Assembly (NCBI GenBank): GCA_947172415.1
Contig: OX359191.1
Span: 2,480,001-2,544,000, forward strand
Length of the DNA stretch: 64,000 bases
Source: Chondrosia reniformis
Taxonomy: Eukaryota; Porifera; Demospongiae; Chondrillida; Chondrillidae
Direction: 5' to 3'
The translations under genes were made by a program, and so were the position numbers. Below the pieces are notes generated by a model, which worked only from the letters and a program-made list of their open reading frames with translations, ran no database searches and was not told the DNA's origin. Shown piece by piece: positions 18,563 through 61,454 of this stretch. Every line of letters begins with the position of its first letter. Position 1 is the first letter of the stretch.

Positions 18563-18785
18563 CATTCTCCCCTGCCCGAAAGCACTCCAGGTATTAAATA
18601 GATACAAAACTCTAGTAAGCACCTCCACCTTTACTGTATATTTTATATTCAAACATACTACTTATAATATGTATAAACGTAAGCACCTCGGCGACCGACA
18701 AAATGGCCACTGTGCGAACCCGGACAAGTCATTAGAGAGAGGAAGTTAGCATCTTACGTAATACTAATAAAAATGGCCGATATAT

Positions 18786-20312
18786 AAGTGAGCATGTATA
18801 TGTAATGTAGATACTGTAAATGTTGTAGAATTGGTAGAATTGGTAGATTCTGTAGATAGTGTAGATTCGGTAGATACTGTAGATTCGGTAGATGCTGTAG
18901 AATTGGTAGATACTGTAGATGTTGTAGATTCGGTAGATACTGTAGATTCGGTAGATGCTGTAGAATTGGTAGATACTGTAGATGTTGTAGAATTGGTAGA
19001 TTCTGTAGATACTGTAGATGTTGTAGAATTGGTAGATACTGTAGATTCGGTAGATACTGTAGATGTTGTAGAATTGGTAGATACTGTAGATTCGGTAGAT
19101 GCTGTAGAATTGGTAGATACTGTAGATGTTGTAGAATTGGTAGATACTGTAGATTCGGTAGATACTGTAGAATTTGTAGGTTTGGTAGATTCGGTAGATA
19201 CTGTAGATTTGGTAGATACTGTAGATGTTGTAGAATTGGTAGATACTGTAGATTCGGTAGATGCTGTAGAATTGGTAGATACTGTAGATGTTGTAGAATT
19301 GGTAGATTCTGTAGATACTGTAGATGTTGTAGAATTGGTAGATACTGTAGATTCGGTAGATACTGTAGATGTTGTAGAATTGGTAGATACTGTAGATTCG
19401 GTAGATGCTGTAGAATTGGTAGATACTGTAGATGTTGTAGAATTGGTAGATACTGTAGATTCGGTAGATACTGTAGAATTTGTAGGTTTGGTAGATTCGG
19501 TAGATACTGTAGATTTGGTAGATACTGTAGATTTGGTAGATACTGTAGATGTTGTAGAATTGGTAGATACTGTAGATTCGGTAGATGCTGTAGAATTGGT
19601 AGATAATGTAGATTCGGTAGATTCGGTAGATGCTGTAGAATTGGTAGATACTGTAGATTCGGTAGATACTGTAGAATTGGTAGATACTGTAGATGTTGTA
19701 GAATTGGTAGATACTGTAGAATTGGTAGATACTGTAGATGTTGTAGAATTGGTAGATAATGTAGATTCGGTAGATTCGGTAGATGCTGTAGAATTGGTAG
19801 ATACTGTAGAATTGGTAGATACTGTAGATGTTGTAGAATTGGTAGATACTGTAGATTCGGTAGATACTGTAGAATTGGTAGATACTGTAGATGTTGTAGA
19901 ATTGGTAGATACTGTAGAATTGGTAGATACTGTAGATGTTGTAGAATTGGTAGATGTTGTAGAATTGGTAGATACTGTAGATTCGGTAGATGCTGTAGAA
20001 TTGGTAGATACTGTAGATGTTGTAGAATTGGTAGATACTGTAGATTCGGTAGATGCTGTAGAATTGGTAGATACTGTAGATGTTGTAGAATTGGTAGATT
20101 CTGTACAATTTGTAGAATTGGTAGATTCTGTAGATGTTGTAGAATTGGTAGATTCTGTAGATACTGTAGATGTTGTAGAATTGGTAGATACTGTAGATTC
20201 GGTAGATACTGTAGATGTTGTAGAATTGGTAGATACTGTAGATTCGGTAGATACTGTAGATGTTGTAGAATTTGTAGAATTGGTAGATACTGTAGATACT
20301 GTATAGATTTGG
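18786..20312 (+). repeat. Left minisatellite arm: 9-bp words of GTAGANNNN
   Basis: About 1.5 kb consists of 9-bp units drawn from a small set (GTAGATACT, GTAGATTCG, GTAGATGCT, GTAGAATTG, GTAGATGTT, GTAGATTTG). Unit length is kept so strictly that several frames stay open for hundreds of codons on both strands. Higher-order repetition is visible; for example a block with GTAGAATTTGTAGGTTTG occurs near 19165 and again near 19470. The long translated products (VDTVDSVDAVEL and similar) are by-products of the periodicity. Confidence 0.9.
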
Positions 20313-20963
20313 TAGGTACTGTAGATTATTTTATTTCTGGCTTCAAACACTGTGCAAGCACACACACACATATACACATAGACTTTACTGGGCATGAGGT
20401 ACGCTGCACTGATGAGGACCCAATAAGGCCGAAATAGTGTGATACATGCATGCATATTCTTCCAAGCATATATCACACTGTCTGCAGCTCCTGTTTGTTC
20501 CATAAGTTGCACTGACAATATGATGTATAGCAAAGCAGGAATTAGGTGACCAACACAAATGCATGTGGTCTGCCATTTAGTATAGTTAAATGGGAAATTG
20601 GGGGAAGACATACGACACATGGGGTATACCCCAACAATTGGGTGTTCTGCTTCATGACTGTGCATGTATATAGTGAGAAAAAACAACAGTTCTTAGCTGT
20701 TCAATGGTTAGGAAAATATCATTGCTATGTGGAATCAAGGATATCAACCTTGATCTCTCTACAGGGTTCTTGTTTACATTGTGTTGCCACATCTCCAAAA
20801 TTATGCATTAAATAGTAATTATTATGATACATACGTTGTGCCATTGATTACAGTGGATCGTACCCTGAATGTAAGAATTTTTTTATTACTGCAAGTCAGT
20901 ATATAGGCACAGATAAAATGACTAATAATGAGTTCAAAAAATATCTAATTGTATAGTACTGTA
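20313..20963. other. Core of the 5.9-kb element, left part
   Basis: No protein is firmly recognised. A minus-strand frame at 20385-20576 contains a Cys/His cluster (CRQCDICLEEYACMYH) that might be part of a zinc-binding domain, but the spacing fits no family I can name. A CA microsatellite is at about 20358-20369. Confidence 0.35.
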
Positions 20964-21173
20964 CTAGTTTGTCTTTGTTAATTCTTCCATGCATACCCTA
21001 CATGTATATGAAGCATGTGTGTCTGACTCTGTAATTTCAGCACATGACTGATGAAACCAGCTGTCACATCTGTTGCACTGTATCCACCTTACATTGTTGC
21101 TTTCAGTGGAACTGGTTGCTGGATCATCTTCTTCATAGCAATATAAGGAGGAGGTAGACCAATTCTTTGCCAC
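20964..21173 (-). CDS. PHD-finger-like terminal exon in the 5.9-kb element
   Basis: The frame ends VCMEELTKTN-stop. It contains WIQCNRCDSWFHQSCAEI followed by SYTCRVC. This is the second half of a C4HC3 PHD finger: a Cys pair, the WFH..C signature, then the last Cys pair. One upstream Cys (LYCYEED) is present, but the first zinc pair is incomplete. The true exon may start near an acceptor around 21150 and join an upstream exon to the right. PHD fingers bind histone H3 tails, which suggests chromatin targeting. The first residues overlap a plus-strand frame, and only one of the two can be genuine there. Confidence 0.55.
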   Translation of the reverse strand: MAKNWSTSSLYCYEEDDPATSSTESNNVRWIQCNRCDSWFHQSCAEITESDTHASYTCRVCMEELTKTN

Positions 21174-21204
21174 AAAAATTGCAAATACGATACAACTGTA
21201 TCAA

Positions 21205-21504
21205 ATGGAATCAACGTTAACACCAGTAATAAGTGAATGCCAAATGCCAATGGACACCGGCCACAACTACATAGAGCAGTATGCACAAGAAGTGCTACTA
21301 TGGACAGGAACCCGATCAAGGAGTGAAATTTTGCAATGCCTGAAATTTCAGCCCAAGACTAATCAATTTATGTTTGTTTCAACTGAAATACCAGTCGATC
21401 CTACGACAGTAGCAATGTTACAGAAGGCTGCTGATCCTAAGAGAAATAATCCCCTTTGTTTAAAGGAACTGGGCGACAATTCCTCTCAAGAAAAGCAGCC
21501 ATGA
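21205..21504 (+). CDS. Unidentified ORF in the core of the 5.9-kb element
   Basis: A 99-codon open frame runs from ATG to stop and can be extended upstream to a possible acceptor near 21137. Its composition is protein-like, with segments such as LLWTGTRSRSEILQCLKFQP and IPVDPTTVAMLQKAADP. I do not recognise a family. It may be one exon of the same gene as 21882-22476, though it closes with its own stop. Its start lies only about 30 bp from that of the divergently read PHD frame. Confidence 0.35.
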   Translation: MESTLTPVISECQMPMDTGHNYIEQYAQEVLLWTGTRSRSEILQCLKFQPKTNQFMFVSTEIPVDPTTVAMLQKAADPKRNNPLCLKELGDNSSQEKQP

Positions 21505-21881
21505 AGATCCCTCCTGTTACTGAGGTGAATTTATATTCTTTATAGTAATGCCATGTGTACATACAAATACAAATATATAGTTACTGTAGTTTTCACTATA
21601 CTGGTATATATAGCATCAGTTATATAGCATTTGTGTTTTATAGGCCCAAAGGTAGCTATTTATTTTTAGTAGTGACATTAAAATTTGTCATCTTCAATAC
21701 TTTAGATTGGAACAGGGAAGCCCGAGTGCACCACAAAAAAGAGGTGCATAGTGGTGCATAAGTCATGTCTTGGTGATGAGCTTGCAGAAGCATTGCAATC
21801 AGGTTGGTAGCTTAATAGCAGATAAAAGTATAGGTATATATATGGGACACTTATTAAATATTTTTGTATTTTGCGATTCAG

Positions 21882-22476
21882 TTTGCTCAGCTCCCAAAGC
21901 ATCAGCTGCAAAAGATAAAAACAAGGACACAGTAGGGAATACTGACGTGAACAAGGACACAGCAGGGAATACTGACGTGAACAAGGACACAGCAGGGAAT
22001 ACTGACGTGAACAAGGACACAGCAGGGAATACTGACGTGAACAAGGACACAGCAGGGAATACTGACGTGAACAAGGACACAGCAGGGAATACTGACGTGA
22101 ACAAGGACACAGTAGGGAATACTGACGTGAACAAGGACACAGTAGGGAATACTGACGTGAACAAGGACACAGCAGGGAATACTGACGTGAACAAGGACAC
22201 AGCAGGGAATACTGACGTGAACAAGGACACAGCAGGGAATACTGACGTGAACAAGGACACAGTAGGGAATACTGATGTGGACACAATCTCCAAAAGAAAA
22301 AGAAAGTTAACACGAAAAAATATAAGTATATACATAATATTACATGTATATGCTACAACATGTGATTTAAATGCATATTTATATTAGTAGAATCTACTGC
22401 AAAGCGAACAAGAAGCAAGATTAAAGTGGCAGAATTCAGTAAAGAACTTTGCTTTGGAGATACAATTCTAAAGTAA
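21882..22476 (+). CDS. Gene fragment with twelve 10-residue repeats and a basic tail
   Basis: Two apparent exons are seen. The first (about 21882-22325, after a TTCAG acceptor) starts with APKASAAKDK, carries twelve copies of a decapeptide of the type NKDTAGNTDV, and ends with SKRKRKLTRK, a likely nuclear localisation signal. The second (22388-22476, after a TATTAG acceptor) reads VESTAKRTRSKIKVAEFSKE and stops shortly after. The repeat is hydrophilic and probably disordered. The only recurrent change between units is Ala/Val at one site. A partner start exon is not certain. Function is unknown; nuclear location is inferred from the basic cluster. Confidence 0.45.
21921..22280 (+). repeat. 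30-bp tandem repeat, 12 units
   Basis: There are twelve units of ACAAGGACACAGCAGGGAAT... with period 30 bp. They are almost identical apart from a C/T at one position (units 1, 7, 8 and 12 have T) and minor changes in the last unit. Its length is a multiple of three, so it is frame-neutral inside the coding region described above. Confidence 0.95.
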
Positions 22477-22740
22477 AATTTGACTTTTTTCTTTATTTAT
22501 TTATGTAATAACTTTTAAATTTAATGTTCATTAATTCTTTTATTACAAAATATATATAACCATAATAACAATCATAAAATATTCTTTTATTATATAGCAT
22601 GTTTTTAATTACATTTATATGAAATTCTAAAATATAATTACACTTTATAGGGTCCCGCATAATGTCATTACAATATTATATAAATTAAATATTACAATAT
22701 ATGTGCAGATCTATAGTCACTCATCAAAAGTACATGCATG
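22477..22740. other. AT-rich spacer in the 5.9-kb element
   Basis: Very AT-rich sequence between the end of the repeat-containing gene and the right minisatellite arm; no gene is seen. Confidence 0.4.
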
Positions 22741-22744
22741 CATC

Positions 22745-24525
22745 AAGTTTTCTACCAATTCTACAACATCTACATTATCTACCGAATCTACAACATCTAC
22801 ATTATCTACTAATTCTACAGCATCTACCGAATCTACAACATCTACCGAATCTACAGTATCTATACCAAATCTACAGCATCTACATTATCTACCGAATCTA
22901 CAGTATCTACCAATTCTACAACATCTACCGAATCTACAGAATCTACCAATTCTACAGCATCTACCGAATCTAGAGTATCTACCAAATCTACAGCATCTAC
23001 ATTATCTACCAATTCTACAAATTCTACAACATCTACCGAATCTACAGTATCTACCAAATCTACAGTATCTACCAAATCTACAGTATCTACCAAATCTACA
23101 GTATCTACCAAATCTACAGTATCTACCAAATCTACAGTATCTACCAAATCTACAGTATCTACCAAATCTACAGTATCTACCAAATCTACAGTATCTACCA
23201 ATTCAACAACATCTACATTATCTACCAATTCTACAGCATCTACCGAATCTACCAATTCTACAACATCTACAGTATCTACCAAATCTACAACATCTACCAA
23301 ATCTACAACATCTACAGTATCTACCAATTCTACAACATCTACAGTATCTACCGAATCTACAACATCTACAGTATCTACCAATTCTACAACATCTACATTA
23401 TCTACCGAATCTACAACATCTACATTATCTACTAATTCTACAGCATCTACCGAATCTACAACATCTACCGAATCTACAGTATCTACCAAATCTACAGCAT
23501 CTACATTATCTACCGAATCTACAGTATCTACCAATTCTACAACATCTACCGAATCTACAGAATCTACCAATTCTACAGCATCTACCGAATCTAGAGTATC
23601 TACCAAATCTACAGCATCTACATTATCTACCAATTCTACAACATCTACCGAATCTACAGTATCTACCAAATCTACAGTATCTACCAAATCTACAGTATCT
23701 ACCAAATCTACAGTATCTACCAAATCTACAGTATCTACCAAATCTACAGTATCTACCAAATCTACAGTATCTACCAAATCTACAGTATCTACCAAATCTA
23801 CAGTATCTACCAATTCTACAACATCTACAGTATCTACCAAATCTACAACATCTACAGTATCTACCAATTCTACAACATCTACAGTATCTACCAATTCTAC
23901 AACATCTACAGTATCTACCAATTCTACAACATCTACAGTATCTACCAATTCTACAGCATCTACCGAATCTACAAATTCTACAGTATCTACCAATTCTACA
24001 ACATCTACAGTATCTACCAATTCTACAAATTCTACAGCATCTACCGAATCTACAAATTCTACAACATCTACAACATCTACAGTATCTACCAATTCTACAA
24101 CATCTACAGTATCTACCAATTCTACAACATCTACAGTATCTACCAATTCTACAACATCTACAGTATCTACCAATTCTACAGTATCTACCGAATCTACAAA
24201 ATCTACAGTATCTACCAATTCTACAGCATCTACCGAATCTACAGTATCTACCAATTCTACAACATCTACAACATCTACCAATTCTACAGCATCTACCGAA
24301 TCTACAAAATCTACAGTATCTACCAATTCTACAACATCTACAACATCTACAACATCTACATTATCTACTGAATCTACAGTATCTACATTATCTACCAATT
24401 CTACAGCATCTACCGAATCTACAAAATCTACAGTATCTACCAATTCTACAGCATCTACCGAATCTACAGTATCTACCAAATCTACAACATCTATATAGTA
24501 TCTACCGAATCTACAGCATCCATTA
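22745..24525 (-). repeat. Right minisatellite arm, inverted relative to the left arm
   Basis: The same 9-bp words as in the left arm appear as complements (CTACAGTAT, CTACCGAAT, CTACAGCAT, CTACCAATT, CTACAACAT, CTACATTAT, CTACCAAAT) for about 1.8 kb. A run of about nine CTACCAAATCTACAGTAT dimers occurs twice (about 23040-23200 and 23655-23815) within a larger duplicated block of over 400 bp (about 22780-23200 and 23405-23815). This shows recent segmental duplication in the arm. Long open frames here are artefacts of the 9-bp period. Confidence 0.9.
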
Positions 24526-24640
24526 TCTACATATATCGGCCATTTTTAATAGTATTACGTAAGATGCTAACTTCCTCTCTCTAATGGCTAGTCGAACCCG
24601 GCGTTAACGTAAGGACTTGCCTGAAGTGATCGTTGCAGCG

Positions 24641-24700
24641 ATGGAGTCAAAAAAGGCACGGAAGAAGAATTTACAGCAATGGCGAATGATGTCGAACAGA
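24641..24700 (+). CDS. First exon of a KDZ-element plus-strand gene
   Basis: An ATG opens a 20-codon highly basic exon (MESKKARKKNLQQWRMMSNR) that ends exactly at a strong donor, GTGAGT (24701). It is read towards the exons at 30156 onward, but the phase does not join directly to 30156, so an intermediate exon is missing or the partner is different. The 5.9-kb element has inserted about 40 bp upstream and has likely cut off the promoter, which would lie around 18626-18714. Confidence 0.4.
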
Positions 24701-24701
24701 G

Positions 24702-25209
24702 TGAGTCGAATGCAGATTCATTTCTTGCCCAAATCTGAAGCCTGCAATTCTTAACCAGCAATTATGGAATGATAGATGGTTTACTAATTAATTGGTAGTT
24801 ACTACTTTGTTTTCATCTCAGCACATATAGTAATGTTGCACAATGTATGTGTGTGCGAAATGTATGGTCAAATGGTGAAATTTCGTGATACTTACTAGTT
24901 TCACATATATATAAATGTGTACATGCAAATTCTTCTTTCTATACTTATAGAAATTGTAAATCTATACATGTGTAAATTATATACTGCAGGTAGAGAAATG
25001 GAAACTTAGTCTTGGGTCTAGTATGGACTCAATTATTTGTATCTGAATGAGCCCTCGTGGCCAAATTCAGTTTTGTGGTAAGTACTTGCATGGTCACTAT
25101 AAGAGACATAGTTAATACACTGATGACTGTACGGGGTCTAGCACATTGAAAATCACAGCATTACAATGTTGTAGAATTTCCCAGTGCTACTGATGAGTGT
25201 GGTATTCCC
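24702..25209. other. Putative intron, nothing recognised
   Basis: No exon, repeat or transposon signature could be identified between the basic first exon and the 68-bp array. Confidence 0.35.
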
Positions 25210-25440
25210 AGAAACCCTACACAGGCATAAATACTTAACAATGACTTGGATGTTTTGGCATGCTAAGCACCTCCATGCACGTTTCGCTGTATATAGCCAT
25301 CAGAAGATGCTTAGGGAATGTTTTGGCATGTTAAGCAACTCCAAGCAGAAGGTGCTTAGGGTATGTTTTGGCATTCTAAGCACCTCCATGCACGTTTTGC
25401 TGTATATATAGCCATCAGAAGGTGCTTAGGGTATGTTTTG
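25210..25440. repeat. 68-bp minisatellite, left remnant
   Basis: About three units of the array built on TAAGCACCTCCATGCACG...TATAGCCATCAGAAGGTGCT. The array was split by the Gypsy element and resumes at 28719. Confidence 0.85.
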
Positions 25441-25445
25441 GCATG

Positions 25446-25640
25446 TGTAATGTTCTATGGGTTCAAATAATCAAGCAAACTTCACTAGCTAAGTAAAACA
25501 GTTGAACTTCAATTCTCCATTTTTAATAACAAAAACAATACAATAGCACTTCTATATAAACCACACACACACACGTGTTACAACTGGTTTCCACTAGTTT
25601 AAGCAATCAGTTTATAACGATTAACTAAACATACAGTACA
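25446..25640 (-). repeat. Gypsy 3' LTR
   Basis: A 195-bp repeat with TG...CA ends, about 98% identical to the 5' LTR. It includes a short (CA)n run. It is preceded on the minus strand by the polypurine tract. Confidence 0.93.
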
Positions 25641-25704
25641 CTCCTCTCCTCTAAATCTGAAGAGGACAAAGAAAAGCGTGTACACAAAAACAGAGTGAGT
25701 CTAC

Positions 25705-28498
25705 CTAATAAGTAAGCTTGTCCACAGGCCTACGCTCTCTAAACGGATATCTCCGAACTTCAACAGCAGTGTTCTCATGGCTAGAAGTGTCAGTAACATT
25801 AGTCCTCATTCCATCAACTGGACCTGAAATGCCACTCAATGAGGACGTTGGCTCCTGTGATATCACTGGGCTAGTTGCAACTTCACTCTCACTGGAATCA
25901 TTGCCAACTTGCCTAATCTGGTCCACGTGCTTCCTCCAAACTTGACCAGTATTTAACTTGACCAAGTACGACACAGGACCCCGCTGCTTCACGACCACTC
26001 CAGGAAGCCACTGGGACGGATTTTTGGAATCCTTAATAGTAACCGTAGAACCCAAGGGCAACTCCCGTTCTCTGGCCCGAACGTCATGATGTTTCTTTTG
26101 TTCAGCCTGGCGATCTCTCACACCACTTGCAACATCAGGCATTAACAGACTGAATCTGGTACGTATGTGTCTCCCTAAGAAGAGTTGTGAAGGTGTCTTC
26201 CCAGTAGTGCTATGAGGAGTGGTTCGATAAGTCATTAAGAAGTTGTTCAGATTGTGCTGAGACGACAAACTATTACCCGTCACAGCCCTCATTGCTTGCT
26301 TGAAGGTCTGGACTAGTCTTTCCACAGCACCATTAGAAGCTGGGTGATAAGGTGCCACTCTGATGTGTTTCACCCCATTCTTTTTCATAAAAGTTGCAAA
26401 CTCCTCTGAGACAAACTGAGGTCCATTGTCAGAAACGAGCTGTTCTGGAAGACCGTATGCTGCAAAGAGACGGCGTAAGACATCTATTGTTTTAGTAGCT
26501 GTTGTAGATGACATTTCCACGATCTCAGGCCACTTTGCATGTGCGTCTATCAACAAAAAGAACATCTTGCCCTGAAAGGGTCCCGCAAAATCCACGTTTT
26601 TCCTCTGCCAAGGTTGTGCTGGCCAAAGCCAGTGATGCAATGGCGCCTTCTGAGGTGTATTCTTGACTGATTGACAAGCTACACAACCCCTAGCTGTCTC
26701 CTTAATCTCTTTGTCTAGTGTTGGCCACCAGAAGTATCCCCGTGCTAAAGCCTTCATTCTCACCATACCCACATGTTCACGATGCAGCTCTGCTAGTAAA
26801 TTGGCCTGAAATTTTATTGGTACACTAACTCTGGTACCCCAAAGCAAACACTCCCCTTCCACTGTTAATTCATGTTGACGTGTTAGGTAGGGCTGAAAAA
26901 CCTGTGACAACTTGTCTTTTCCTGGCCACCCTTTCCTAACATTCTGTAAAATTTTGCTCAGTATGACATCCTTCCTGGTTTCATTCTCTATTTGCATTGC
27001 TGTCACTGGGAGGGCATTGATCTGACCAATGTGAAAGCATGCCGCTTCTGTAGCCTCCAAGGTCTCCCCTCCTCCAAGCTCTGTAGTAAGGGGAAGTCTG
27101 GATAAACCATCCGCATTGCAGTGCTGGAAGGTATTCCGGAACTGAATCTGATAATTATAAGTGGAGAGAATTGTAGCCCACCGCTGTATCCTTGATGCTG
27201 CCAATGGAGGTATGCTTTTGGCAGGATGCAAAATGGTCATCAACGGCTTGTGATCCGTTAGCAAGGTGAATTGACGTCCATAGATATACTTATGGAATTT
27301 CTTGACACCAAATACAAGTGCCAAGGCTTCCTTCTCTAACTGTGAATAATTCTTTTCACTGCTGGAAAGTGTCCTTGAAGCAAAGGCTATTGGTTTCTCT
27401 GCACCATTAGGATATTGATGTGAGATGACAGCACCGATACCATAAGCGGATGCATCTGCTGCTAGTTTCAAGGGCAACTTGGAATCGTAGTGTGCTAAGA
27501 CCTGTGTTGAAGTCAGAGCAGTTTTGGCCTGTTGAAATGCTTGATCACAATCATTTGACCACACCCATTTGATGCCATTTTTTAGCAAGTGGTTCAGAGG
27601 ATGAATGAGAGTGGCCAAATTGGGCAGGAATCGACCATAGTATAGTTCAACAGACCCAAGAAGGACCTCAGCTCAGTCACATTCTTGGGGACTGGAGCTT
27701 CTGTAATGGCTTTTAGTTTCTCTGATGTGGCATGAAGGCCATCAGCATCTATCCGGTGACCTAAGTAGTCCACAGAATTGACCATAAAAGCGCATTTCTC
27801 CTCCTTCACCCGAAAACCATATGACTGCAAGCGGTCCAGAACCTTGGCTAGGTTGCTCAGATGTTCTGAATCTGAGGTACCGGTCACTAGGACATCATCC
27901 ACATAGCAAACTACCCTAGGTAACCCCTGCAACACCATGTCCATAGTACGTTGGAAAATGGCAGGTGCTGAGGCCACTCCAAATGGAAGACGGTTGTAGC
28001 GGTATAGGCCCATATGCGTGTTGATGGTGATCAACTCCCTTGCTGCTTCATCCAAGGGTATCTGTTGATATGCCTGCAACAGATCCAACTTGGAGAACTT
28101 TTTTCCACCAGCCAAAGTTGCAAATATCTCTTCTGGAGTGGGCAATGGGTGTTGATCCACTTGCAAGCAGTAACCTTGTAGTCCCCACAAATGCGCAGTC
28201 TTCCATCCTTCTTTGGTACTGGCACTATAGGGGCTGCCCACTCGCTATGATCCACCTTCTCTAAGATACCTTCTTTTGCTAGTCTGGTAATTTCCTGACC
28301 TACAGCATCTTTGATAGCAAAGGGCACACTTCTTGGGCGGAAGAACTTGGGCTGTGCACCTTCCTTGAGTGTAAGAGAAGCCTTCAGGTTGCGCACCACA
28401 ATTCCATTAGCCCTGATAAAAATTTGAAGTCTCTCCAAATAACTAGAGATAGAGTCAACTTCAGGCTGAAACTCTTGCATACTGCCAATAGTCGCCAT
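25705..28498 (-). pseudogene. Gypsy gag-pol remnant: short gag start fused to RT, RNase H, integrase
   Basis: From ATG 28498 the frame gives a gag-type start (EFQPEVDSISSYLERLQIFI) and then jumps directly into the start of RT (LKASLTLKEGAQPKFFRPRS). Further domains follow: RT (SKLDLLQAYQQIPLD, then VVCYVDDVLVTG), RNase H (LAADASAYGIGAVISHQYP, then TDHKPLMTILHP), an HHCC zinc finger (ELHREHVG, CVACQSVK), and a DDE integrase (VDFAGPFQGKMFFLLIDAHA, then SDNGPQFVSEEF). Frameshifts near 28165 and near 27640 break the polyprotein. The protease and most of gag are absent. It could move only with proteins from another copy. The last frame (27618-25705, 637 codons) is still fully open. Confidence 0.9.
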
Positions 28499-28518
28499 CC
28501 CACCCCCGTCGCCAACTT

Positions 28519-28713
28519 TGTAATGTTCTATGGGTTCAAATAATCGAGCAAACTTCACTAGCTAAGTAAAACAGTTGAACTTCAATTCTCCATTTTTAAT
28601 AACAAAAACAATACAATAGCACTTCTATATAAACCACACACACACACGTGTTACAACTGCTTTCCACTAGTTTAAGCAATCAGTTTATAACAATTAACTA
28701 AGCATACAGTACA
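28519..28713 (-). repeat. Gypsy 5' LTR
   Basis: A 195-bp repeat matching the 3' LTR. The gag start codon lies only about 20 bp inside its inner border. Confidence 0.93.
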
Positions 28714-28718
28714 GCATG

Positions 28719-30125
28719 CTTAACACCTCCATTTACGTTTTGCTGTATATAGCCATCAGAAGGTGCTTAGGGTGTGTTTTGGCATTCTAAGCACCTCCAT
28801 GCACGTTTTGCTGTATATAGCCATCAGAAGGTGCTTAGGGTATGTTTAGGCATTCTAAGCACCTCCATGCACGTTTTGCTGTATATAACCATTAGAAGGT
28901 GCTTCCATGCACGTTTTGCTGTATATAACCATCAGTAGGTGCTTGGGGTATGTTTTGGCATTCTAAGCATCTCCATGCACGTTTTGCTGTATATAACCAT
29001 CAGAAGGTGCTTACGGTATGTTTTGGCATTCTAAGCACCTCCATGCACGTTTTGCTGTATATAACCATCAGAAGGTGCTTACGGTAGGTTTTGGCATGCT
29101 TAGCACCTCCATGCATGTTTTGCTGTATATAGCCATCAGAAAGTGCTTAGGGTATATATGTTTTGGCATTCTAAGCACCTCCATGCACGTTTTACTGTAT
29201 ATAGCCATCGGAAGGTGCTTAGGGTATGTTTTGGCATCCTAAGCACCTCCATGCACGTTTTGCTGTATATAACCATCGGAAGGTGCTTAGGGTATGTTTT
29301 GGCATGCTAAGCACCTCAATGCACGTTTTGCTATATATAGCCATCAGAAGGTGCTTAGGGTATGTTTTGGCATTCTAAGCACCTCCATGCACGTTTTGCT
29401 GTATATAACCATCAGAAGGTGCTTACAGTATGTTTAGGCATTCTAAGCACCTCCATGCACGTTTTGCTGTATATAACCATCAGAAGGAGCTTAGGGTATG
29501 TTTTGGCATTCTAAGCACCTCCATGCACGTTTTGCTGTATATAACCATCAGAAGGTGCTTGGGGTCTGTTTTGGCATTCTAAGCCCCTCCATGCACGTTT
29601 TGCTGTATATAACCATCAGAAAGTGCTTGCGGCATGTTTCGGCATGCTAAGCACCTCCATGCACGTTTTGCTGTATATAACCATCAGAAGGTGCTTACAG
29701 TATGTTTAGGCATTCTAAGCACCTCCATGCATGTTTTGCTGTATATAACCATCAGAAGGAGCTTAGGGTATGTTTTGGCATTCTAAGCACCTCCATGCAC
29801 GTTTTGCTGTATATAACCATCAGAAGGTGCTTGGGGTCTGTTTTGGCATTCTAAGCCCCTCCATGCACGTTTTGCTGTATATAACCATCAGAAGGTGCTT
29901 GCGGCATGTTTCGGCATGCTAAGCACCTCCATGCACGTTTTGCTGTATATAACCATCAGAAGGTGCTTGCGGCATGTTTTGGCATCCTAAGCACCTCCAT
30001 GCACATTTTGCTGTATATAAAATCAGAAGGTGCTTGCGGTATGTTTTGGCATTCTAAGCACCTTATGCCAAAATATACCCTAAGCACGTTTTGCTGTAAA
30101 TAGCCATCAGAAGGTGCTTAGGGTA
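28719..30125. repeat. 68-bp minisatellite, main array
   Basis: About twenty imperfect units of about 68 bp (shorter variants occur) contain TTCTAAGCACCTCCATGCAC, TGCTGTATATAACCATCAG and AAGGTGCTTAGGGTATGTTT. The AAGGTGCTTA and TAAGCACCT parts form an inverted pair that repeats the terminal motif of the enclosing element. It ends just before the exon at 30156, so it lies in an intron of the plus-strand gene. Confidence 0.92.
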
Positions 30126-30155
30126 TATTTTGGCATTTGGCATTTGTTTTTTTAG

Positions 30156-30752
30156 AATCAAATCATATGAAGGCATTTATGGAGGAGAAATCTATTATTA
30201 GTTTATTCAAGAAGTATGCCAATAGTCGCTCTCTGAAGATTGGACACAGAACTTCCCAAGGTATATGCTCATGTATATACATACTCCATAGCGGGCACAT
30301 ATATACAAAACCATTGTCACATGTATATGTTGCAATTACAGCACACACATTTAACAGAAAGGGGAGAGAAAAGAAGTTTCACCTCCCCAGCAATAGGTGT
30401 GACTTAAGGAAGCTCGTATCAGAATATGTTAATCCTTATAGTAAGCTTGCATGAATATATTATATTGCATGTACATTAACAAGCTTATACATTCATTCAA
30501 AGGAATAAAGGAAAGAGAAACTTTTGGCAAGTGGGGAATAAACCAGTATGGTGGCCTCCAACTGTTGATTTTTATTCACCAAATGGAACAAGAGGTATTA
30601 TAGAATATATAGTTTAACTATAATATAAATGACATATATTGCATAACATTGAAATATCCATCCTAGGAAAAGTAAGACCAACTTATGATAGTCTAGTTGC
30701 TGTAGCTGAATGTATGATTGCGGCAAATCCACAAGACTTCACATTTGATTGA
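30156..30752 (+). CDS. Unidentified spliced protein in the KDZ element
   Basis: Exons are supported at 30156-30260 (after TTTTTTTAG), 30342-30440, about 30491-30594 (acceptor unclear) and 30667-30752 (stop TGA). The product contains FMEEKSIISLFKKYANSRSL, HLPSNRCDLRKLVSEYV, KPVWWPPTVDFYSPNGTR and DSLVAVAECMIAANPQDF. The frame stays consistent over exons 1, 2 and 4, with exon 3 fitting if its acceptor is about 30490. I do not recognise the family; the WWPPTVDF segment would be the best search handle. It is upstream of, and on the same strand as, the OTU gene. Confidence 0.45.
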
Positions 30753-31919
30753 ACATCCAGGGGAAGTCAACAGGATGTAATGGAGGTTAACATGCACTTT
30801 ATAGCTTCATAGCTTCTGGTGTAACTTTTGCTCTTGTAATTGTGTCAACTGTAAAATGTAAAAATGCTATCAACCAAAGGAATTAACTCATGGATGTGTA
30901 GCACATTATTTGTCTGGGACAAAACTGAGAGTTAATTATTATGTATTGACATAATATAGGTCCAGGATTTTTCAGAATTGTTATCTAATGAAACAGCTTT
31001 AGACCAAATCAGAGAAGTACATGAAGAGATTTACAGCATCAACTGATTCATTTAAAGGTATATGTAATTAAACTTTTAATTATATATAGGTAGTATCAAG
31101 TGTTAGCAGTAAGTGTGATGAAGACAGGTCAGCTTCTCCACTTTGTTTGAAGAGGTATATAATTTTTGAATATTGCACGTATATGTTATATTGTATGCAT
31201 ATATGTAACCATCATCATTACGGCCTGAGGAAACCAATATGGAAATTTCTAACATCATAAATGAGGTATATACTCTATATAATACAGTCATGCACCTGTA
31301 TAGGTATAAACTGTTTGTATATAGGTTCCACTCAATGCCACTCTTTCAGCTGACATAGAAAGAAATAGACCACAACATTATGGAATGATAAAGGTATAGA
31401 TATTTTTTGTTATATCTTTATAATATAGGATATGTTTTTAATTCCATGTAAAAATACTTTTTATATGTAATGCCATGTATACAAAGGAAGGTCCATTGAA
31501 AAAGATGGCACAATTGTCTACACAAAGAAAAGGCACTGAGTATAAGGTATATAATGTGCATTGGTCACCTGCATGTAGCTATCAAAATATGAAATATATA
31601 GTACGTACCTCATTCAATATTAACAGAAGGAACTACGAGAAATATCAAAGTTATCAAACAGTAAGGATTTACTGAAGACATGTCTGAAAATATGGAGTAA
31701 CCTGGAGAAAGACACACCTTCTAATAAAAACCAAGTGGTTGACTTCAGGACATCCACTAACCTTGTAAAGGAAGAGAGGTGTGGTTGAAATCTGTTCTGG
31801 AATACAATAATAGGATTTTTGTATTACATCATTATGTATTATTGATTTGTATCTATTTTGTATTACATTCAAAAAAATATATTTTAAACTAGCTTAATTC
31901 ATAATTAAATTTTATGTAG
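30753..31919 (+). other. Interval with several possible small exons
   Basis: Three short stretches look exonic. At about 30962-31047, after a TATAG acceptor, the frame reads VQDFSELLSNETALDQIREV and soon stops. At 31326-31396 it reads VPLNATLSADIERNRPQHYG. At about 31490-31545 it reads LKKMAQLSTQRKGTEYK. They are small, rich in polar residues and bordered by GT/AG, but I cannot chain them or name a family. One may be the 5' part of the OTU gene. Confidence 0.3.
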
Positions 31920-33321
31920 AATCAGTGCCCTACATCAGGTGCCTGAGGCCATGTGGGCAGCACAATGCACAGGTGATGGGAACTGCCTGTTTAATGCAGT
32001 TTCAATTAGCATGGAAGGGAATGAAACACTAACAACCATGCTCCGTTTGGCTACAACAACATGGGCAGTTATACATTGTGATCTCTACGTGGACATGGTA
32101 TAAACTCACCATTTTCATTTATGCAGCTTATATTGATTTCCAATCTCTAACATTTTTATATAGTATTGTCAATCCATATCTGATATTAATGATGCTCGTG
32201 CCCTCCTGTACACAACATCCTCAATGAAGGCATGGAAAAATAAGCCAGAAAGCAGTAGTGCCAAAGACATCATTTCCTATTGCTTAAAGGAGGAAATCCT
32301 TAAAACAGCCAGGATTGGGGAATGGAGTGGTATGCAATACTGAAATATTCAACTCACTCTAAATGATGTCACTATACAGGTAATACTTCTATAGGATTAC
32401 TGCAGGTACTGTTTGTTGCTGGCATGCTCCAGAGACAAATCCAATTGTACTGTGAGCTGGAGCATGCTACAGGATATGACATACTAGTCCCACCATGTTC
32501 CTGTTGCAAAGCCATGTCAACACCTCTGCACTTGATGATGGTACAAAGTGGTGATGCTAGGAAGCATGACCTACCACCAAACCACTTTGTACCACTATTA
32601 CCAAACAAAGGTAAATATATTAACAGGATAATACAGTCTAATACCACTGTATACATTATCTGTAAGTAGATGTTAAAGCCCCTTAAAAGTGCTGCACACT
32701 TCCAGGCCTATCAAAACGGTTCTGTGCTATGAAACCATTCAATATGTGTAATATTGGGCAATTGGTGGGTGAAACATTGCAGGTGGATTGGGTGCAGTGC
32801 TGCACATGCAACAGCTACTATCACTGCCTTTGTGTTGGTTTGCCGAAGCATTTGATAAAAGCTGGTTTTTCCTGCTGTTCTGCAGAAAACACCCTACAGG
32901 ATACACCGTAAGTAACAGTCTAATGCCATGCATGACATGCACTATGTACCATATGCCTGGCATGAATGTTTCACACTTCCCTGAACTGAATGTAGGCTTA
33001 TTTATTACCCACATCGACGGGCCAAACCAGAAACTCTCCTTAATGTTTACAGCCTATATACAACACATTACATAAGTGAAGAAATCATTGATTTTTATGC
33101 TCAGTAAGTTCTAGATGTGGTATTTCAAATTTTGTTATTTGACTAATTGGATTACCATTTATTTGAATAGACTAATGTCCGAAAGTGGTACAGTGGGGTT
33201 TAAGTACTTAACCCACCTAGCCTGGCAGAGAATAGCTGCTGACAGGGAGCATGGGAAAATGGTTGCCAGCATTCATAAAATTTTGCTAAACCTAGCTCAG
33301 AAGCTACTTCCGAATGTGTGA
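31920..33321 (+). CDS. OTU-family cysteine protease with PHD-like finger
   Basis: The exons are 31920-32097, 32164-32329, 32380-32610, 32706-32907 and a last piece at 33171-33321; the first upstream exon is not identified. The first exon contains QCTGDGNCLFNAVSISMEGN, the OTU catalytic Asp/Cys motif (DGNCLF). The third ends with PPNHFVPLLPN, which supplies the catalytic His (NHFVPL) at the expected end of the domain. The fourth exon adds DWVQCCTCNSYYHCLCVGLP and a CC pair, a PHD-like zinc finger. The last exon reads KYLTHLAWQRIAADREHGKM. OTU enzymes remove ubiquitin; the finger suggests chromatin or DNA association. How 32907 joins 33171 is not certain. As cargo of a transposon it may protect the transposase from degradation, which is inference. 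Confidence 0.7.
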
Positions 33322-33700
33322 CAGGATATATCTTTCCACTCTGCATAAGGTTAGGTGTAAAAGGCTGCACAGTATGTATACAGGAATAATGTGCTGCACA
33401 AGCAGGATTATTATATCTATTACATGCCAGTGCATTTTATTATGTATAGCCAGCATTGGATTTTAGCAAGTGTCATGAAGGAGGATAATAGGTAATGAAA
33501 CCTTAACTTCATATGCAGTATTATGCCCATTCAGTTTACTCTTTAGCCTTACCTACCTTGATTCACTCACTGGGACCAAGTTTCAATCAACTGAAACCAC
33601 ACAATGTATAAAAAGGTATTACACTTGCAGGACTATAGACATTAACATATGTGACTTCCACTGTATCATGATTACAAAATAGGTTCTTACAACATGACCC
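33322..33700. other. Spacer between OTU and cysteine-protease-like exons
   Basis: No clear exon or repeat is visible. Confidence 0.35.
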
Positions 33701-33703
33701 ACA

Positions 33704-33996
33704 TTGGAAAACGGATCTCAAAAAATGAAGGTGGTCAAACCTTTGGTACCCAAACAGCAGAACTATCATGACTGTTGGGCCTTTGCTATGTATTTCTTTA
33801 GATGTTTATTTCGGGTGAGTTACTTTATCTCCATGTACATATATTGTATACATACATACATATATACATATTACAGGATAATCCTAAAAATACACAAGAA
33901 GTGGTCAAGTCTGTCAACACAGGCGGAATAAAGTTAGACTTCATAGGCCCAATTATCAGGAAGGAAGCACTTTTTAATATTTACTCAAAGTTATAA
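33704..33996 (+). CDS. Cysteine-protease-like exon pair (CWAFA motif)
   Basis: Two exons (about 33704-33814 with donor GTGAGT, and 33876-33996 after TTACAG) join in phase 0 to a stop. The first holds PLVPKQQNYHDCWAFAMYFF, where Q-x5-C-W-A-F resembles the oxyanion Gln and nucleophile Cys of papain-type enzymes. The Q.N..DC pattern also recalls Ulp1/C48 proteases. The second reads DNPKNTQEVVKSVNTGGIKL. No His motif is visible, so this may be a remnant or the end of a longer protein. It faces the end of the KDZ gene (34048) tail to tail, about 50 bp apart. Confidence 0.4.
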
Positions 33997-34047
33997 ACAT
34001 TTATCTAGCACTTTCTTGTTTCTAAAAAATGAATAACTTTAGATGTT

Positions 34048-37000
34048 CTAGAAAGTTTTGTTTCTCATATATGACAATGAAGACTTTTTGTTGTTAAATA
34101 CACTGTTTGCTTGTTCCACTACCTCAGTGTTGACGGATGAGAATTGGGAATATAGCTGAATATTATAACCTGAACTCCAAGCTATAGGACATACAAAATA
34201 CTGTGTGGCATTTTATATTTATATACCGTATATCTTCTATAAATTCGTGAACTTTTGAGACTTTTCAATTCTTACTTTTCGAAGTTTAGGAGGAAATACG
34301 CGCCTCTTCGTTCGCATCTTGCGAAAATTAGAGACTTCTTGCGAAATTAGAGGCGTTCTGACGCCATTTTATGGAGGTACACAATGGCTGCCTCTGGCTC
34401 GTTCTTTGTCACAATATCTTGCGTTATTCGTGGGTATCATGTCTACAAAGAGGTTTGGAGCCCCAATATTGGAGTGAATTTCATGTGCTTCGACGAGGAA
34501 GAGAACGTTCATGACAGGAAAGCGGTAGAAAGAGTCACCAGGAGATTCTTTGCTTGTTCGCTGCTGTGCTGGCCTCTTGCGTGTGTTACTCAGTGGCTTG
34601 AACCTCTGCAGAAACACTGGCCACGATGACGATGACCCTGACGGTCCTGGCGAGCCGCTGGCAAACTCCAACAGAGATCTCTGCCTAGTTTTCACCTCCT
34701 TCGTCAGGTCGACGCGCTCTGGAGATCTCCTCGTAACCAGTTATCTCAACATCCGACGACATCTCCTAGTGCAACACTGCTTCTAGGTGCGATTACCGTT
34801 GCTACAAGTTCCAAGGTTTACATCTGGTATTACAATACCCATTTTACACGCGCTTTGCCGAAATTAGAGGATGTTTGCGAACTTTAGAGTTCGCAAAAAG
34901 TTCGAATTTTTAGAGCGTGTCAGTGCAAGATCGCTAAATGTTTACGAAAATTAGAGTTTCGAATTTATAGAAGATTTACGGTATCAACAATATTATATAT
35001 ACCTTTATGATTATACCAATGAAATCTGTCCACAAAGAAGATTGTACTTTTAAAATGCATGGGACATCTGTTCAGAGCATACTCCTCCAGAAAACATGCA
35101 TTATCATAAACAACAGTTTTTGGAGCTTAGATTCAGAAGAAGTAAAGAACATGCATATACAATTAATGACATACTCGCATATCAAAATATTTTCCCAAGC
35201 AGACTCTCACCTTGTTTAAACCGTGTCATTAAAAGAGTAAAAGGAACTTCAGGCGACTCATTCTGACGCATTACCTGAAACCCATAACATACTCCTACAA
35301 AAAAGTATAAATCATACATTATAAATTGCAGATAAATTGCTCAGATCAAAAGAAATTACCGTGTGGACAGAATATTGTAAATATTCCAGGTAGCAAGGTT
35401 GGATGCCTGCAATTGGACTTCCTACACATGTCTGTTTGTGCAAAAGAAATTCTCTTGTGAAATTCAGTAGCCAATGGATCCTCTAAATCTGACTGCCTAC
35501 TACTCCACACATTAAAATAATGGTACATTGTACTTCTAAATTAAGAAATGGACATGTTATACCATCAGCTTCTACAGTATATTATGTATATATATACGTA
35601 CCCTATATATATATTGATTTATGTGGTTATATAATATATATGCTAACCTTCCATGTATAAAGTGGTATAAATGGTCTCTAAGCACAGAATGGGACATTAA
35701 TAGATTCCCCATGTTCAACACTCCATCTTCATTTCCATCATAGGAAATTTGATGTGAACATTGGTTGCACTGGAGACAAAACACTATGTCCAGAGAGACA
35801 AAAATGTATTTAGTAATCTTAAAGATCTATTATTGAAAAAAGCTTAAAAGCCTATACCTTTAGCTCTTTCAATAGTATCCATTGTAAAAGTGGATAAATC
35901 CCGTCAACCACAGGAATTAATTCAGTAGAACATTGTCTGGGACAAACTGACGGAGGTGGTATCAAATGTATCAAACTGTCCTCTGAATTGGATGGACTGA
36001 GATATTTAGATTTCTTGGATGGAATCAAGTTGATTGCTTTTGATGACACAACTCCTGTGGTTAAATCAGCAGGCTTAGAACGATATTCAAACCGCTTACT
36101 GATGAGTCCTTGGATAATATTGTGAAGACCTTGCAGTTCGTACTTTTCCAACTGCTCTTTGTCATCAAGGAGTAGTGACATGTACACCACATGGCAACAT
36201 GCCTTAGGTACGCAGCACGAAAAACATTTTAAAACACCTTTCTCAAGGCCAACCACTGCACTGCTACCATCTACATGAACATCCACTACGGCTGACAAGT
36301 CGTCGACTTCAAAAATATATTCTTTCACCTGATCTTCTATCAACCCTGAAATGATGACAACCTTTTTATGCATATAGATATACACATACAGAACTGTAAT
36401 CACCTGAACTCTCATGCAGCTGCAGTTATTTGCAAATCACGGTCCACAACTGTGAGTAAGTGCTTCAGAACAACTAAATGAATGCACCTCTGTTGCAGTT
36501 CTGAAAAGGCATCTAGACATATATAAAGACTATATATACTCCAAGCAAAAAGAATAGGGTAGATGGCATATACGTAAAGATAATTGATCGTGGTACCTTC
36601 TCATGATCCAATTATACTACTTGCAAGTTTATTCAATAGAACTTGTGCTTGGGGTAAACAACTACATGCATACATCCATATAAAAGTTTTTTACCCTCCA
36701 GACAAAAAGCACGGCGCTGAATACATAAATACCTATTATTCTAAAGAAATATTAACATACTAGGATGAGTCATCTGAATTAAGTCACAGCATACCTATTG
36801 TCAAAACTATATAGTCTTCAACTCACTATTAGCTTCTTTCTTATTGGATCAAAGTCCTTTATTAAAAATTCTCGGTAAGAGTTATCTACAGGCACACAAG
36901 TTGAATACTGCTTCAAAAGGTTGGAGTAGATAGTTTCATCAGCAGTTGTTAACTAAATCAGGAATGTCAAACAATGATCCATTCAGTAAATTGTTCAAGC

Positions 37001-37275
37001 TATATAACTCTTACCACATTCTCATCGATATCATCTAGTACTGAGTGTTGCCCTTCATTACCACTAGGAGATTCAAAGCCTAACATCCACTGGGAGTCAC
37101 TCTGGGGCAAAACGTCTGACAGTAAAGATGCGGCCGATTTACCTTTACTTTTTCCACTCAGTTTAGCTTTCTTCAGAGGCATTCTCGAATAATCATAACG
37201 TACCCCTTCTGGTAGAGCAAGAATTTTCACTGGAGTCAAAGACTTCCTCTTTGTAGTTTCAGCTTTGAAAGACAT
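34048..37275 (-). CDS. KDZ (Kyakuja-Dileera-Zisupton) / HMGXB3-like transposase
   Basis: The exons are 37015-37275 (ATG; basic, MSFKAETTKRKSLTPVKILA), 36827-36952, one or more unresolved, 35858-36345, 35648-35769, 35360-35535, 35211-35294, 35003-35125 and 34048-34181 (stop TAG). From 36345 to the stop every junction keeps frame. Family landmarks appear in order: a Cys/His cluster (CFSCCVPKACCHVVYM), CNQCSHQISYDGNEDGVLNM, FCPHG joined over an intron to VCYGFQVMRQNESPEVPF, VYDNACFLEEYALNRCP, FVDRFHWYNHK, and a last exon with INSQ-like VNTEVVEQANS and SSLSYMRNKTF. These match KDZ transposases and the related vertebrate HMGXB3. The core is open and may be functional. A MITE occupies the last intron. 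The exon between 36345 and 36827 is not settled. Confidence 0.75.
34384..34535 (+). pseudogene. HIRAN-like domain N-terminal fragment in a MITE
   Basis: From ATG 34384 the frame reads MAASGSFFVTISCVIRGYHV, then YKEVWSPNIGVNFMCFDEEE and NVHDRKAV. This fits the first half of HIRAN-like modules ('..I.GYH.Y..VW.P..G..L.C..E..N..D..AV'). After DRKAV the sequence changes character and the conserved 'VG.IP' block is absent, so the domain is broken. A second, different HIRAN-like ORF occurs in the pogo-like MITE at 16223. Confidence 0.5.
34530..34695 (-). pseudogene. Unidentified ORF start in the same MITE
   Basis: A minus-strand frame (MKTRQRSLLEFASGSPGPSG, then SSSSWPVFLQRFKPLSNTRK and RPAQQRTSKESPG) is Ser/Pro/basic-rich, like the disordered N-terminus of a transposon protein. 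It runs out where the HIRAN fragment meets it. No family can be assigned. Confidence 0.35.
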
Positions 37276-37415
37276 CACAGACAAGATCGGATACGATTTA
37301 CGTGCAGAAGTTACATCCTACATGGACGTCATAATAGTTGAAGGTGCTTTTTTATGCGTTTTAGTACGCCAGATATATATATAAATTGTATACTTACACT
37401 TCGAGGTGCTTACTA

Positions 37416-38084
37416 CATTTTGTTATTCCAAATATATCTCCGAAAGCTGCTGACGTGTTCGCAATACAGTGGTATAGGAAGGATTGCATAATGCTGCTGT
37501 GATGTCTTATATACATGTCATAAAGGTGAGTAATCTATTACGTCAACACTTCCTGGAGCCTCGGCACTGAATGGAAATAGAACTGATGACCTGTCAATTA
37601 GGGTGCACGTGTTTATATTACACGTGTTCGAAATGTTGTTGGGAGAATTGATAGAGAGAAGTATTCTGCAATTCATATTGCTTAAGGTGGGTTTAGCATT
37701 TAGAGTAAGCAATCAGAAGTCGTCCGGATGATATCTCGAAAGCTATAAACTTCAAATGAACATGTCATTACAAACAGCTTTCTTTGAGAAGTTCCTGTAC
37801 GCAATCAGGTATGGGGTGCCGTTTGAAAAAGTATTCAGAAAAAGTGTTACGGTAAAAAATCTGATATAACTAAATTTATTCCTGGAAAAAGGGGATATAT
37901 TATGGGGTGCCATTTGTAAAAATATTCATAAAAAAGTGTTCTAGCAAAAAAACTGATGTACGACTAAATTTATTCCTGTAAAAGGGGATATATCTCTAAA
38001 GATGCCCATCATTTAAGTGATATATAATTTGCACATCCAAAAATGTGATATATCCAAACGTTAGTGGAACATGTCCACACTCCC
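37416..38084. other. Intergenic, with a degenerate tandem duplication
   Basis: A block of about 95 bp beginning TATGGGGTGCC is duplicated in tandem (about 37808-37905 and 37911-37995). No gene is seen. A minus-strand frame at 37518-37712 is open but unrecognised. Confidence 0.45.
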
Positions 38085-61295: not shown

Positions 61296-61454
61296 TATAT
61301 GTACTACTAATATGTAATAGTTGCATGAACTAGTTATATGCACTTGTTGTAAGTACTAGTTGTATAGTCTAGTTGTATGTACTAGTTGTATGTACTAGTT
61401 TTATGTTCTAGTTGTATGTACTGGTTGCATGTACTAGTGTATATACTGGTTATA

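Follow-up and report, generated by a model that had tools for sequence, protein, structure and literature searches.

Introduction

DNA transposons of the KDZ (Kyakuja-Dileera-Zisupton) superfamily have been reported to generate 7-bp target duplications in 2 Kyakuja families and 8-bp duplications in Zisupton and a Dileera-type family, and to carry TET/JBP cargo genes (Kojima 2025, PMC12730594; this and the following reports are cited for the sections that treat these elements). The giant transposons of Ectocarpus, KDZ elements included, contain nested foreign elements that are common to different copies (PMC12477816), and fish Zisupton has an F-box isoform for which a link to ubiquitin was noted (PMC12062965). 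Ubiquitin- and SUMO-related domains are also found in Ginger1, in which transposases contain an OTU or an Ulp1 domain and one family combines Ulp1 with a PHD finger (PMC2836005), and in Helentrons with OTU (PMC4067079) or other deubiquitinases (PMC9741609). Here we describe an element in a stretch of 64,000 nucleotides from the demosponge Chondrosia reniformis (assembly GCA_947172415.1, contig OX359191.1, positions 2,480,001 to 2,544,000), hereafter called the window. We consider it very probable that positions 18588-37440 of the window represent a DNA transposon of the KDZ superfamily in a decayed state, with its KDZ transposase gene arranged tail to tail with a cargo gene for OTU-, PHD- and Ulp1-like (C48) domains.

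The element shares with other KDZ transposons, including the giant KDZ elements of Ectocarpus and the TET/JBP-carrying KDZ elements of fungi, the PF18758 domain, a large multi-exon structure and an accessory gene. As in the giant Ectocarpus elements, nested foreign elements are common to copies (PMC12477816), and as in 2 Kyakuja families, the target duplication is 7 bp (PMC12730594, section 3.2.1). It differs from the TET/JBP carriers in that the accessory gene encodes OTU, PHD and C48 domains, and in its internal array of terminal octamers. The ends, CAGG...CTC with inverted termini, are unlike those of the 2 Kyakuja families, described as CA...TG without terminal inverted repeats, and the 7-bp duplications in the sister copies described below differ from the 8 bp given for Zisupton (both PMC12730594). 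Fish Zisupton belongs to the same superfamily and has a ubiquitin link as well, but its F-box is a ligase adaptor (PMC12062965), whereas the domains observed here are deconjugase-like and encoded by a separate gene.

The Ginger1 elements likewise associate OTU, Ulp1 and PHD domains with a DNA transposon, but a gypsy-type integrase is fused to the protease domain and the duplications are 4 bp, CCGG/CCGT (PMC2836005). In contrast, the element described here has a KDZ transposase, 7-bp duplications, and OTU and C48 domains in a separate, convergent gene, while the integrase match seen in the window is part of a nested retroelement and not of the KDZ unit. Helentrons (OTU; PMC4067079) and Mutator (Ulp1; PMC2836005) also have such an accessory domain, but together with a Rep/helicase or a Mutator transposase. 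No report of OTU or Ulp1 in a KDZ element was found in a literature search that covered few subscription papers, and the terms "OTU" and "Ulp1" were absent from the examined sections of the literature on Zisupton plus proteases.

Results

Sister copies define the ends of the element

The genome (117.4 Mb in 15 contigs, with the window at C3:2480001-2544000) was searched at the protein level, giving numbers of loci that are lower bounds, and the loci were then aligned exon by exon. We name the copies after their contigs (C1, C8, C10 and C12), and the 2 copies on contig C9, at 1348.8-1353.7k and 2816-2821k, are referred to as C9a and C9b. At least 9 loci with KDZ exons were identified (Table 1). 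The cargo gene adjoined the KDZ gene tail to tail in 8 of the 9, across 3 diverged subfamilies, with the KDZ gene facing the cargo gene just as predicted for the minus and plus strands of the window. No cargo was seen at the ninth locus, C2:6292k, where the homology breaks off within the last KDZ exon. A KDZ gene without OTU/PHD genes had been named in advance as evidence against a unit, and this single instance is uninformative on the cargo because the copy is truncated.

The copies C9a and C10 were 99.67% identical across 10,978 bp, after which they diverged abruptly on the right. C9a spanned C9:1341958-1353839 and C10 spanned C10:3672513-3698097, or 11,882 and 25,585 bp, respectively, the difference being due to about 10 kb of nested sequence in the C10 array and to the greater length of the array itself. 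The left start, CAGGTATTAA, fell at an identical position in C9a, C10, C9:2766106 and C7:4817891 (with one change in C7). The right ends of C9a, C10 and C9b also coincided to the base, with different flanks in each; the left end of C9b has been lost. The ends were imperfectly inverted, such that the left end matched the reversed right end at 30 of 41 bases in both C9a and C10. Furthermore, C9a was flanked on both sides by ATTACGC and C10 on both sides by TTCGTGT. These are perfect 7-bp target duplications; in each case, the probability of such a match at a fixed position is roughly 6e-5 (4 to the power -7). Duplications of 7 or 8 bp at defined ends are those of the KDZ superfamily. The alignment of copies proposed in the original prediction thus recovered shared termini, with duplications of 7 bp where 8 bp had been anticipated.

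The sequence comparison demonstrates that the 2 genes form a unit whose ends are fixed, whose termini are inverted and which is flanked by 7-bp duplications. This unit occurs at 2 sites in near-identical form, and on this comparison the C9 and C10 copies show that the whole package of KDZ and cargo genes has jumped. The suggestion that the KDZ transposase and the OTU, PHD and C48 cargo form one transposon is supported because these sister copies have common sharp ends, inverted termini and perfect duplications. It is also supported because a nested element, here called TE-B, is common to the window and C1 copies. TE-B interrupts the left end in the window, and the same junction was found in C1 (CTCTAATGGCT followed by AGTCGAACCCG), whereas C8 is continuous without TE-B. 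Since the window and C1 copies share this junction and differ in their outer flanks, they descend from a TE-B-bearing parent, and the loaded element has moved.

The left border of the window copy starts with CAGGTATTAA as in C9a, and a similar sequence was found in C4. An inverted pair of TAGTAAGCACCTC motifs had been predicted and was present at 18613 (+) and 37403 (-), but the motifs do not mark the outer limits, as the true ends lie 25 bp outside the 13-mer at each side. The exact 13-mer occurs 5 times in 117 Mb, as compared to no occurrence of the same sequence read backwards; at one of these sites, C1:8739083, no KDZ end was recognised by eye. When aligned in inverted order, the 2 end regions of the window scored 54, a value reached by none of 2435 other window segments (largest 47). 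For this control, 3000 segments were drawn and those near the ends or in TE-B or the arrays were dropped before scoring. The window copy is also bordered by a 7-bp repeat, CGAAAGC, with a 4-bp offset on the left. Because 59 of 200 control octamers also matched with at most 1 mismatch in the same 500 bp, the weight of this duplication rests on its position and on the clean cases of C9a and C10.

Table 1. Positions of features of the KDZ element and its surroundings (window coordinates unless a contig is given).
Feature	Position	Strand	Remarks
KDZ-superfamily transposon copy	18588..37440		18,853 bp; left end as in C9a, C10, C9:2766106 and C7; right border common to C1 and C8
Left presumed target duplication, CGAAAGC	18577..18583	+	followed by 4 extra bases, ACTC (18584-18587)
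Right presumed target duplication, CGAAAGC	37441..37447	+	
Left terminal region	18588..18722	+	two TAAGCACC motifs; TAGTAAGCACCTC at 18613
Right terminal region	37300..37440	-	TAGTAAGCACCTC at 37403-37415; ends ...AAATATATCTC
Nested element TE-B	18723..24593		about 65-bp inverted ends; inverted GTAGATAYT-type minisatellites
Left internal region of the KDZ element after TE-B	24594..25249	+	may hold the first cargo exon (by eye, with an ATG near 24642)
Internal minisatellite, first piece	25250..25445	+	
Nested retroelement in minisatellite	25446..28713	-	RNaseH and integrase Pfam matches; array resumes afterwards
Internal 68-bp minisatellite, second piece	28714..30140	+	TAAGCACC in both orientations
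Cargo gene exons	30155..33996	+	N-terminal exons, OTU, PHD, C48; rough exon set
OTU exon with GDGNC motif	31939..32100	+	
OTU exon ending PPNHFVPLL	32400..32609	+	presumed catalytic His
PHD-like zinc finger exon	32702..32917	+	
C48/Ulp1-like exon	33722..33814	+	QQNYHDCWAFA
KDZ transposase gene	34048..37275	-	internally deleted
Insertion like a miniature inverted-repeat transposable element (MITE)	34242..34947		about 0.7 kb; inverted ends; in last KDZ intron; absent from C1
Deletion point in transposase gene	35437..35438	-	0.92-0.94 kb compared with C8 and C1; BLAST borders
Exact 13-mer sites	both window ends; C1 copy right end; C4:2723393; C1:8739083		C4 site in a left-end-like piece
KDZ-exon loci	C3 (window); C1:3645-3648k; C8:2366-2369k; C12:3950-3951k; C9:1348.8-1353.7k; C10:3693-3698k; C9:2816-2821k; C2:6292-6297k; C2:6699k		C12 a fragment; C9:1348.8-1353.7k is C9a, C9:2816-2821k is C9b

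The transposase gene

The predicted minus-strand KDZ gene was confirmed by the PF18758 domain, which places the element in the KDZ superfamily: the match scored 36.1 bits in the window (E 7.3e-9) and 46.6 bits in C9a (E 4.3e-12), above the cut-off of 26.6. A CxC4 match in the window (E 5.9e-6, 26.6 bits) fell 0.3 bit short of its cut-off of 26.9 and was not listed for C9a. The transposase had been described as apparently intact, which it is not, because 942 bp are gone from the window in comparison with C1 and 920 bp in comparison with C8. The C1 counterpart of the deleted stretch encodes ...IPSIIVGDATALAF... and ...CPHCGPIPSIIVGDATALAFRQ..., and at E 0.001 the window matched none of the transposase pieces K7, K8 and K9 of C9a, of which K7 and K9 were matched by C1. 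The window lacks the stretch that carries the presumed first Asp of the acidic triad. Candidates for the triad in C9a are VILCDATSLAY, VVIYDNAC and TQIVEQ, which were assigned by eye with no known structure as reference.

A rough gene model of C9a had in-frame GT-AG junctions at 11 of 11 KDZ steps and 9 of 11 cargo steps; the model is approximate, with piece K10 left out of the KDZ chain and some weak splice sites. All 24 exon pieces of C9a, which had been picked as open frames, were matched by C10 without stop codons (N2 from residue 6 and ULPc from residue 2, both shortened by BLAST). Copies in which all tested exons are open thus exist on C9 and C10.

The cargo gene

Plus-strand exons similar to OTU, a PHD finger and the C48/Ulp1 Cys box were present as predicted at about 31939-33814, and their Pfam matches were weak and below cut-off (E 0.015, 0.015 and 0.022). 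The OTU stretch of the window matched OTUD1 weakly (E 0.0057), with the GDGNC Cys box inside the match, and was 40% identical to that of C9a, with GDGNCLF and PNHxVPL kept. The Cys box GDGNC itself is identical in the two, and PNHxVPL, common to both, is a candidate His box that was recognised by eye and lies outside every database match.

The C48 domain was better supported in C9a, where PF02902 matched with 22.2 bits (E 1.4e-4), above the cut-off of 20.7. The C9a stretch also matched SENP5 with an E of 0.0029 for the whole sequence and 0.19 for the best single stretch, as compared to 0.06 for unrelated importins. In these 2 alignments the catalytic Cys of Ulp1/C48 falls in a Q..DCG box. As a candidate for the catalytic His, an HHF was spotted by eye in C9a. 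The PHD_5 match in C9a (E 1.4e-4) was below cut-off, the corresponding E in the window being 0.015. The motifs GDGNC and QQKNLHDCG and the candidate NHxVPL also speak for our interpretation of the element. Upstream, window positions 24597-25248, in the region of the possible first cargo exon, were 82.7% identical to C8:2354349-2354989.

To describe selection on the 2 genes, ratios of non-synonymous to synonymous substitution (dN/dS) were estimated by the method of Nei-Gojobori. The 4 copies of the window subfamily gave 6 pairs, with 74-405 codons each and 1-5 stop codons skipped, for which dN/dS ranged from 0.17 to 0.55 in the cargo and from 0.20 to 0.76 in the KDZ gene. These values show that the cargo exons in this subfamily are constrained about as much as the transposase.

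An internal array of terminal motifs

The octamer TAAGCACC was counted 3 times in the terminal regions of the window copy, 29 times in its arrays, 44 times in the portion of the C1 array that was analysed and 69 times in the C8 array, and was found neither in the genes of the window copy nor in the 45 kb of the window outside the element. The C9 subfamily has TAAGCCCC instead, with 4 copies in the terminal regions of C9a, none in its genes, and 8, 6 and 30 in the arrays of C9a, C9b and C10, respectively. There were few exceptions, namely one TAAGCACC in the C9b array, 2 TAAGCCCC in the window arrays and one in the C1 array. The terminal octamer is thus amplified in the internal minisatellite, and ends and array differ together between subfamilies, which is a new observation. 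Their joint change suggests that ends and array may be recognised together, most likely by the transposase.

Nested elements

TE-B, the retroelement within the minisatellite and the MITE-like insertion add up to 9,845 of the 18,853 bp of the window element, so that about half of it is nested foreign DNA. Inward of its ends, TE-B has long GTAGATAYT-type minisatellites in inverted arrangement, at 18806-20326 and 22751-24493, as well as a 30-bp array in its interior, and no Pfam match was obtained in the one open reading frame tested. TE-B was also noted at C1:3624518-3632143, C1:1615226-1621787, C9:737593-744628, C14:2532258-2537209 and C10:1506985, with paired end matches at several places. The retroelement appears to be of the Ty3/gypsy type. 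In the insert of the C10 array (C10:3673.7k-3683.8k), repeats of some 0.5 kb stand in inverted orientation. The insert also has a frame for a reverse transcriptase that we take from its motifs (GIPMGTDCAP, YRYIDD) to be Penelope-like, and telomere-like (GGTTAG)8 repeats at its edge.

Other copies and fragments

The locus C2:6699k represents the third, more diverged subfamily, with 38% identity to the window in an OTU exon and a single 39-residue match as evidence for KDZ. The C8 copy contains an inverted segment between 2 inverted 245-bp repeats, and its cargo is therefore split. The 245-bp repeat was 98% identical among C8:2366080-2366324 and C8:2371334-2371578, which flank the inversion, and window positions 61454-61698.

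Cargo pieces for which KDZ was not detected were located at C7:4802-4804k (where the homology to C9a ends at C9a position 1347135), C1:4905k and C1:5117k. Three more loci, C7:3236k, C5:4996k and C1:6928k, have a right end together with first-exon sequence of the KDZ gene. Other KDZ exons and cargo were not among the matches listed there in the protein searches, which are lower bounds, and the last two loci were inspected over 200 bp each. A KDZ-like right end was also seen at C2:6277204, C5:4042718, C2:4081706, C12:2158968 and C10:4319399, and at least 4 of these 5 sites have further common sequence beyond the end (TTTCACAACCTGG...), as though another amplified repeat had captured it.

Many weak OTU matches in long frames of the genome (E > 0.001) were set aside because they are probably other OTU genes. 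The C9a KDZ protein had no match in IMG/VR. A helicase-like open frame (DEAD/DEAH, E 9e-7) was located at window positions 18157-18483, a short distance beyond the left border of the element.

Discussion

Several observations weigh against our interpretation of the window as a decayed KDZ transposon with a deconjugase-like cargo gene. All 3 cargo domains in the window are below the Pfam cut-offs (OTU 16.2 bits against 23.3, C48 15.1 bits against 20.7, and PHD), the C48 box has W in place of the usual G (DCW), and at E 1 the Pfam OTU model did not detect the OTU stretch of C9a. The left CGAAAGC stands 4 bases (ACTC) away from the left end, and the 2 parts of the inverted ends are less distinctive when taken alone, the outer part scoring 43 (reached by 2 of the 2435 segments) and the inner part 27 (reached by 332). 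The left ends of C1 and C8 do not show the CAGGTATTAA end, and the repeats in their flanks, an exact TATTCAAA on both sides of C1 and AAATGGAT and AAATGGGT at C8, lie away from a recognisable left end and may be due to chance. Since no such end stands beside them, and control octamers match as readily as noted above, we did not count these repeats as target duplications. Finally, the dN/dS values of the C9 subfamily are mixed, with 0.35 (C9a/C7), 0.75 (C9a/C9b) and 1.20 (C9b/C7) for the cargo and 0.82-1.16 for KDZ, and C9a and C10 differ per gene by no synonymous and one non-synonymous change.

As to how the element might work, the transposase would bind TAAGC(A/C)CC sites within the inverted ends and, presumably by cut-and-paste, insert the element so that 7 bp of the target are duplicated, the ends and duplications being those observed in the sister copies. 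The accessory protein could act as a chromatin-directed deconjugase that frees the transposase, or silencing or repair factors at the element, of ubiquitin and/or SUMO, and this removal would favour the transposition or survival of the element. The role first proposed for the cargo, in which it would control the ubiquitin or SUMO turnover of the transposase or of host silencing, is compatible with the observations. Whether such a deconjugase aids the element is a question on which we consider the chances to be roughly even. The window copy, being without part of its transposase, would depend on other copies.

Provided that the element is a real KDZ transposon, the OTU/PHD/C48 gene could nevertheless be a passenger without a role in transposition, which we consider unlikely, if worth serious thought. 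Cargo copies with stop codons were found in C9b, C8, C12 and C1, and the 2 stops in a single OTU exon of C9b probably mean that this copy has drifted since insertion. A passenger would also agree with the dN/dS of up to 1.20 in the C9 subfamily and with the giant Ectocarpus transposons, whose accessory genes are mostly described as being of unknown function (PMC12477816). On the other hand, the tail-to-tail cargo has been kept in 3 subfamilies, its constraint is similar to that of the transposase in the window subfamily, and OTU and Ulp1 domains recur among unrelated DNA transposons (PMC2836005, PMC4067079, PMC9741609).

With the same proviso, the cargo might mainly stabilise proteins or counter host defence in general, rather than act at the element during transposition. 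This is in line with the suggestion that Helitron-borne deubiquitinases block the degradation of transposition proteins or overcome limits on inheritance (PMC9741609), but the PHD finger suggests targeting to chromatin, and we regard a purely general role as rather improbable. A more elaborate and equally speculative possibility, which we would not favour, is a two-part control, in which a deconjugase that acts on both ubiquitin and SUMO and has a chromatin reader is sent to the element, and in which transposase and deconjugase use the internal array as a platform for docking, titration or de-silencing. The array adds between 6 and about 70 extra terminal-motif sites per copy, which change along with the ends.

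Two further explanations question the element itself. A segmental duplication, without transposition, of a host locus in which a domesticated KDZ gene happens to adjoin an OTU gene could account for multi-exon genes in few copies (at least 9 KDZ-exon loci) scattered over several contigs. It is contradicted by the perfect and differing 7-bp duplications directly at the inverted ends of C9a and C10, as well as by the identical right base at which C9a, C10 and C9b stop despite their differing flanks, and is thus very improbable. Least probable of all, to the point of being negligible, is that the 13-mer ends are mere units of the 68-bp minisatellite and uninformative on the borders: 16 of the 22 window matches to TAGTAAGCACCTC with up to 2 mismatches do fall in the internal minisatellite, so that near-matches are not exclusive to the ends, but the exact 13-mer is rare in the genome, the inverted end alignment is unequalled among the control segments, and the borders coincide with those of sister copies.

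Ubiquitin- and SUMO-type proteases have been described in Ginger1, Mutator and Helentron, where their role is unproven in the sections cited, and the KDZ element of C. reniformis would add another, unrelated case. The array of terminal motifs that differs together with the ends between subfamilies offers an approach to end recognition by the transposase. The retention in a KDZ element of one separate gene that combines an OTU-like domain, an Ulp1-like domain and a chromatin-type finger strengthens the idea that ubiquitin or SUMO may limit the transposition of DNA elements in animals, and the clean-ended, near-identical copies on C9 and C10 make this idea testable.

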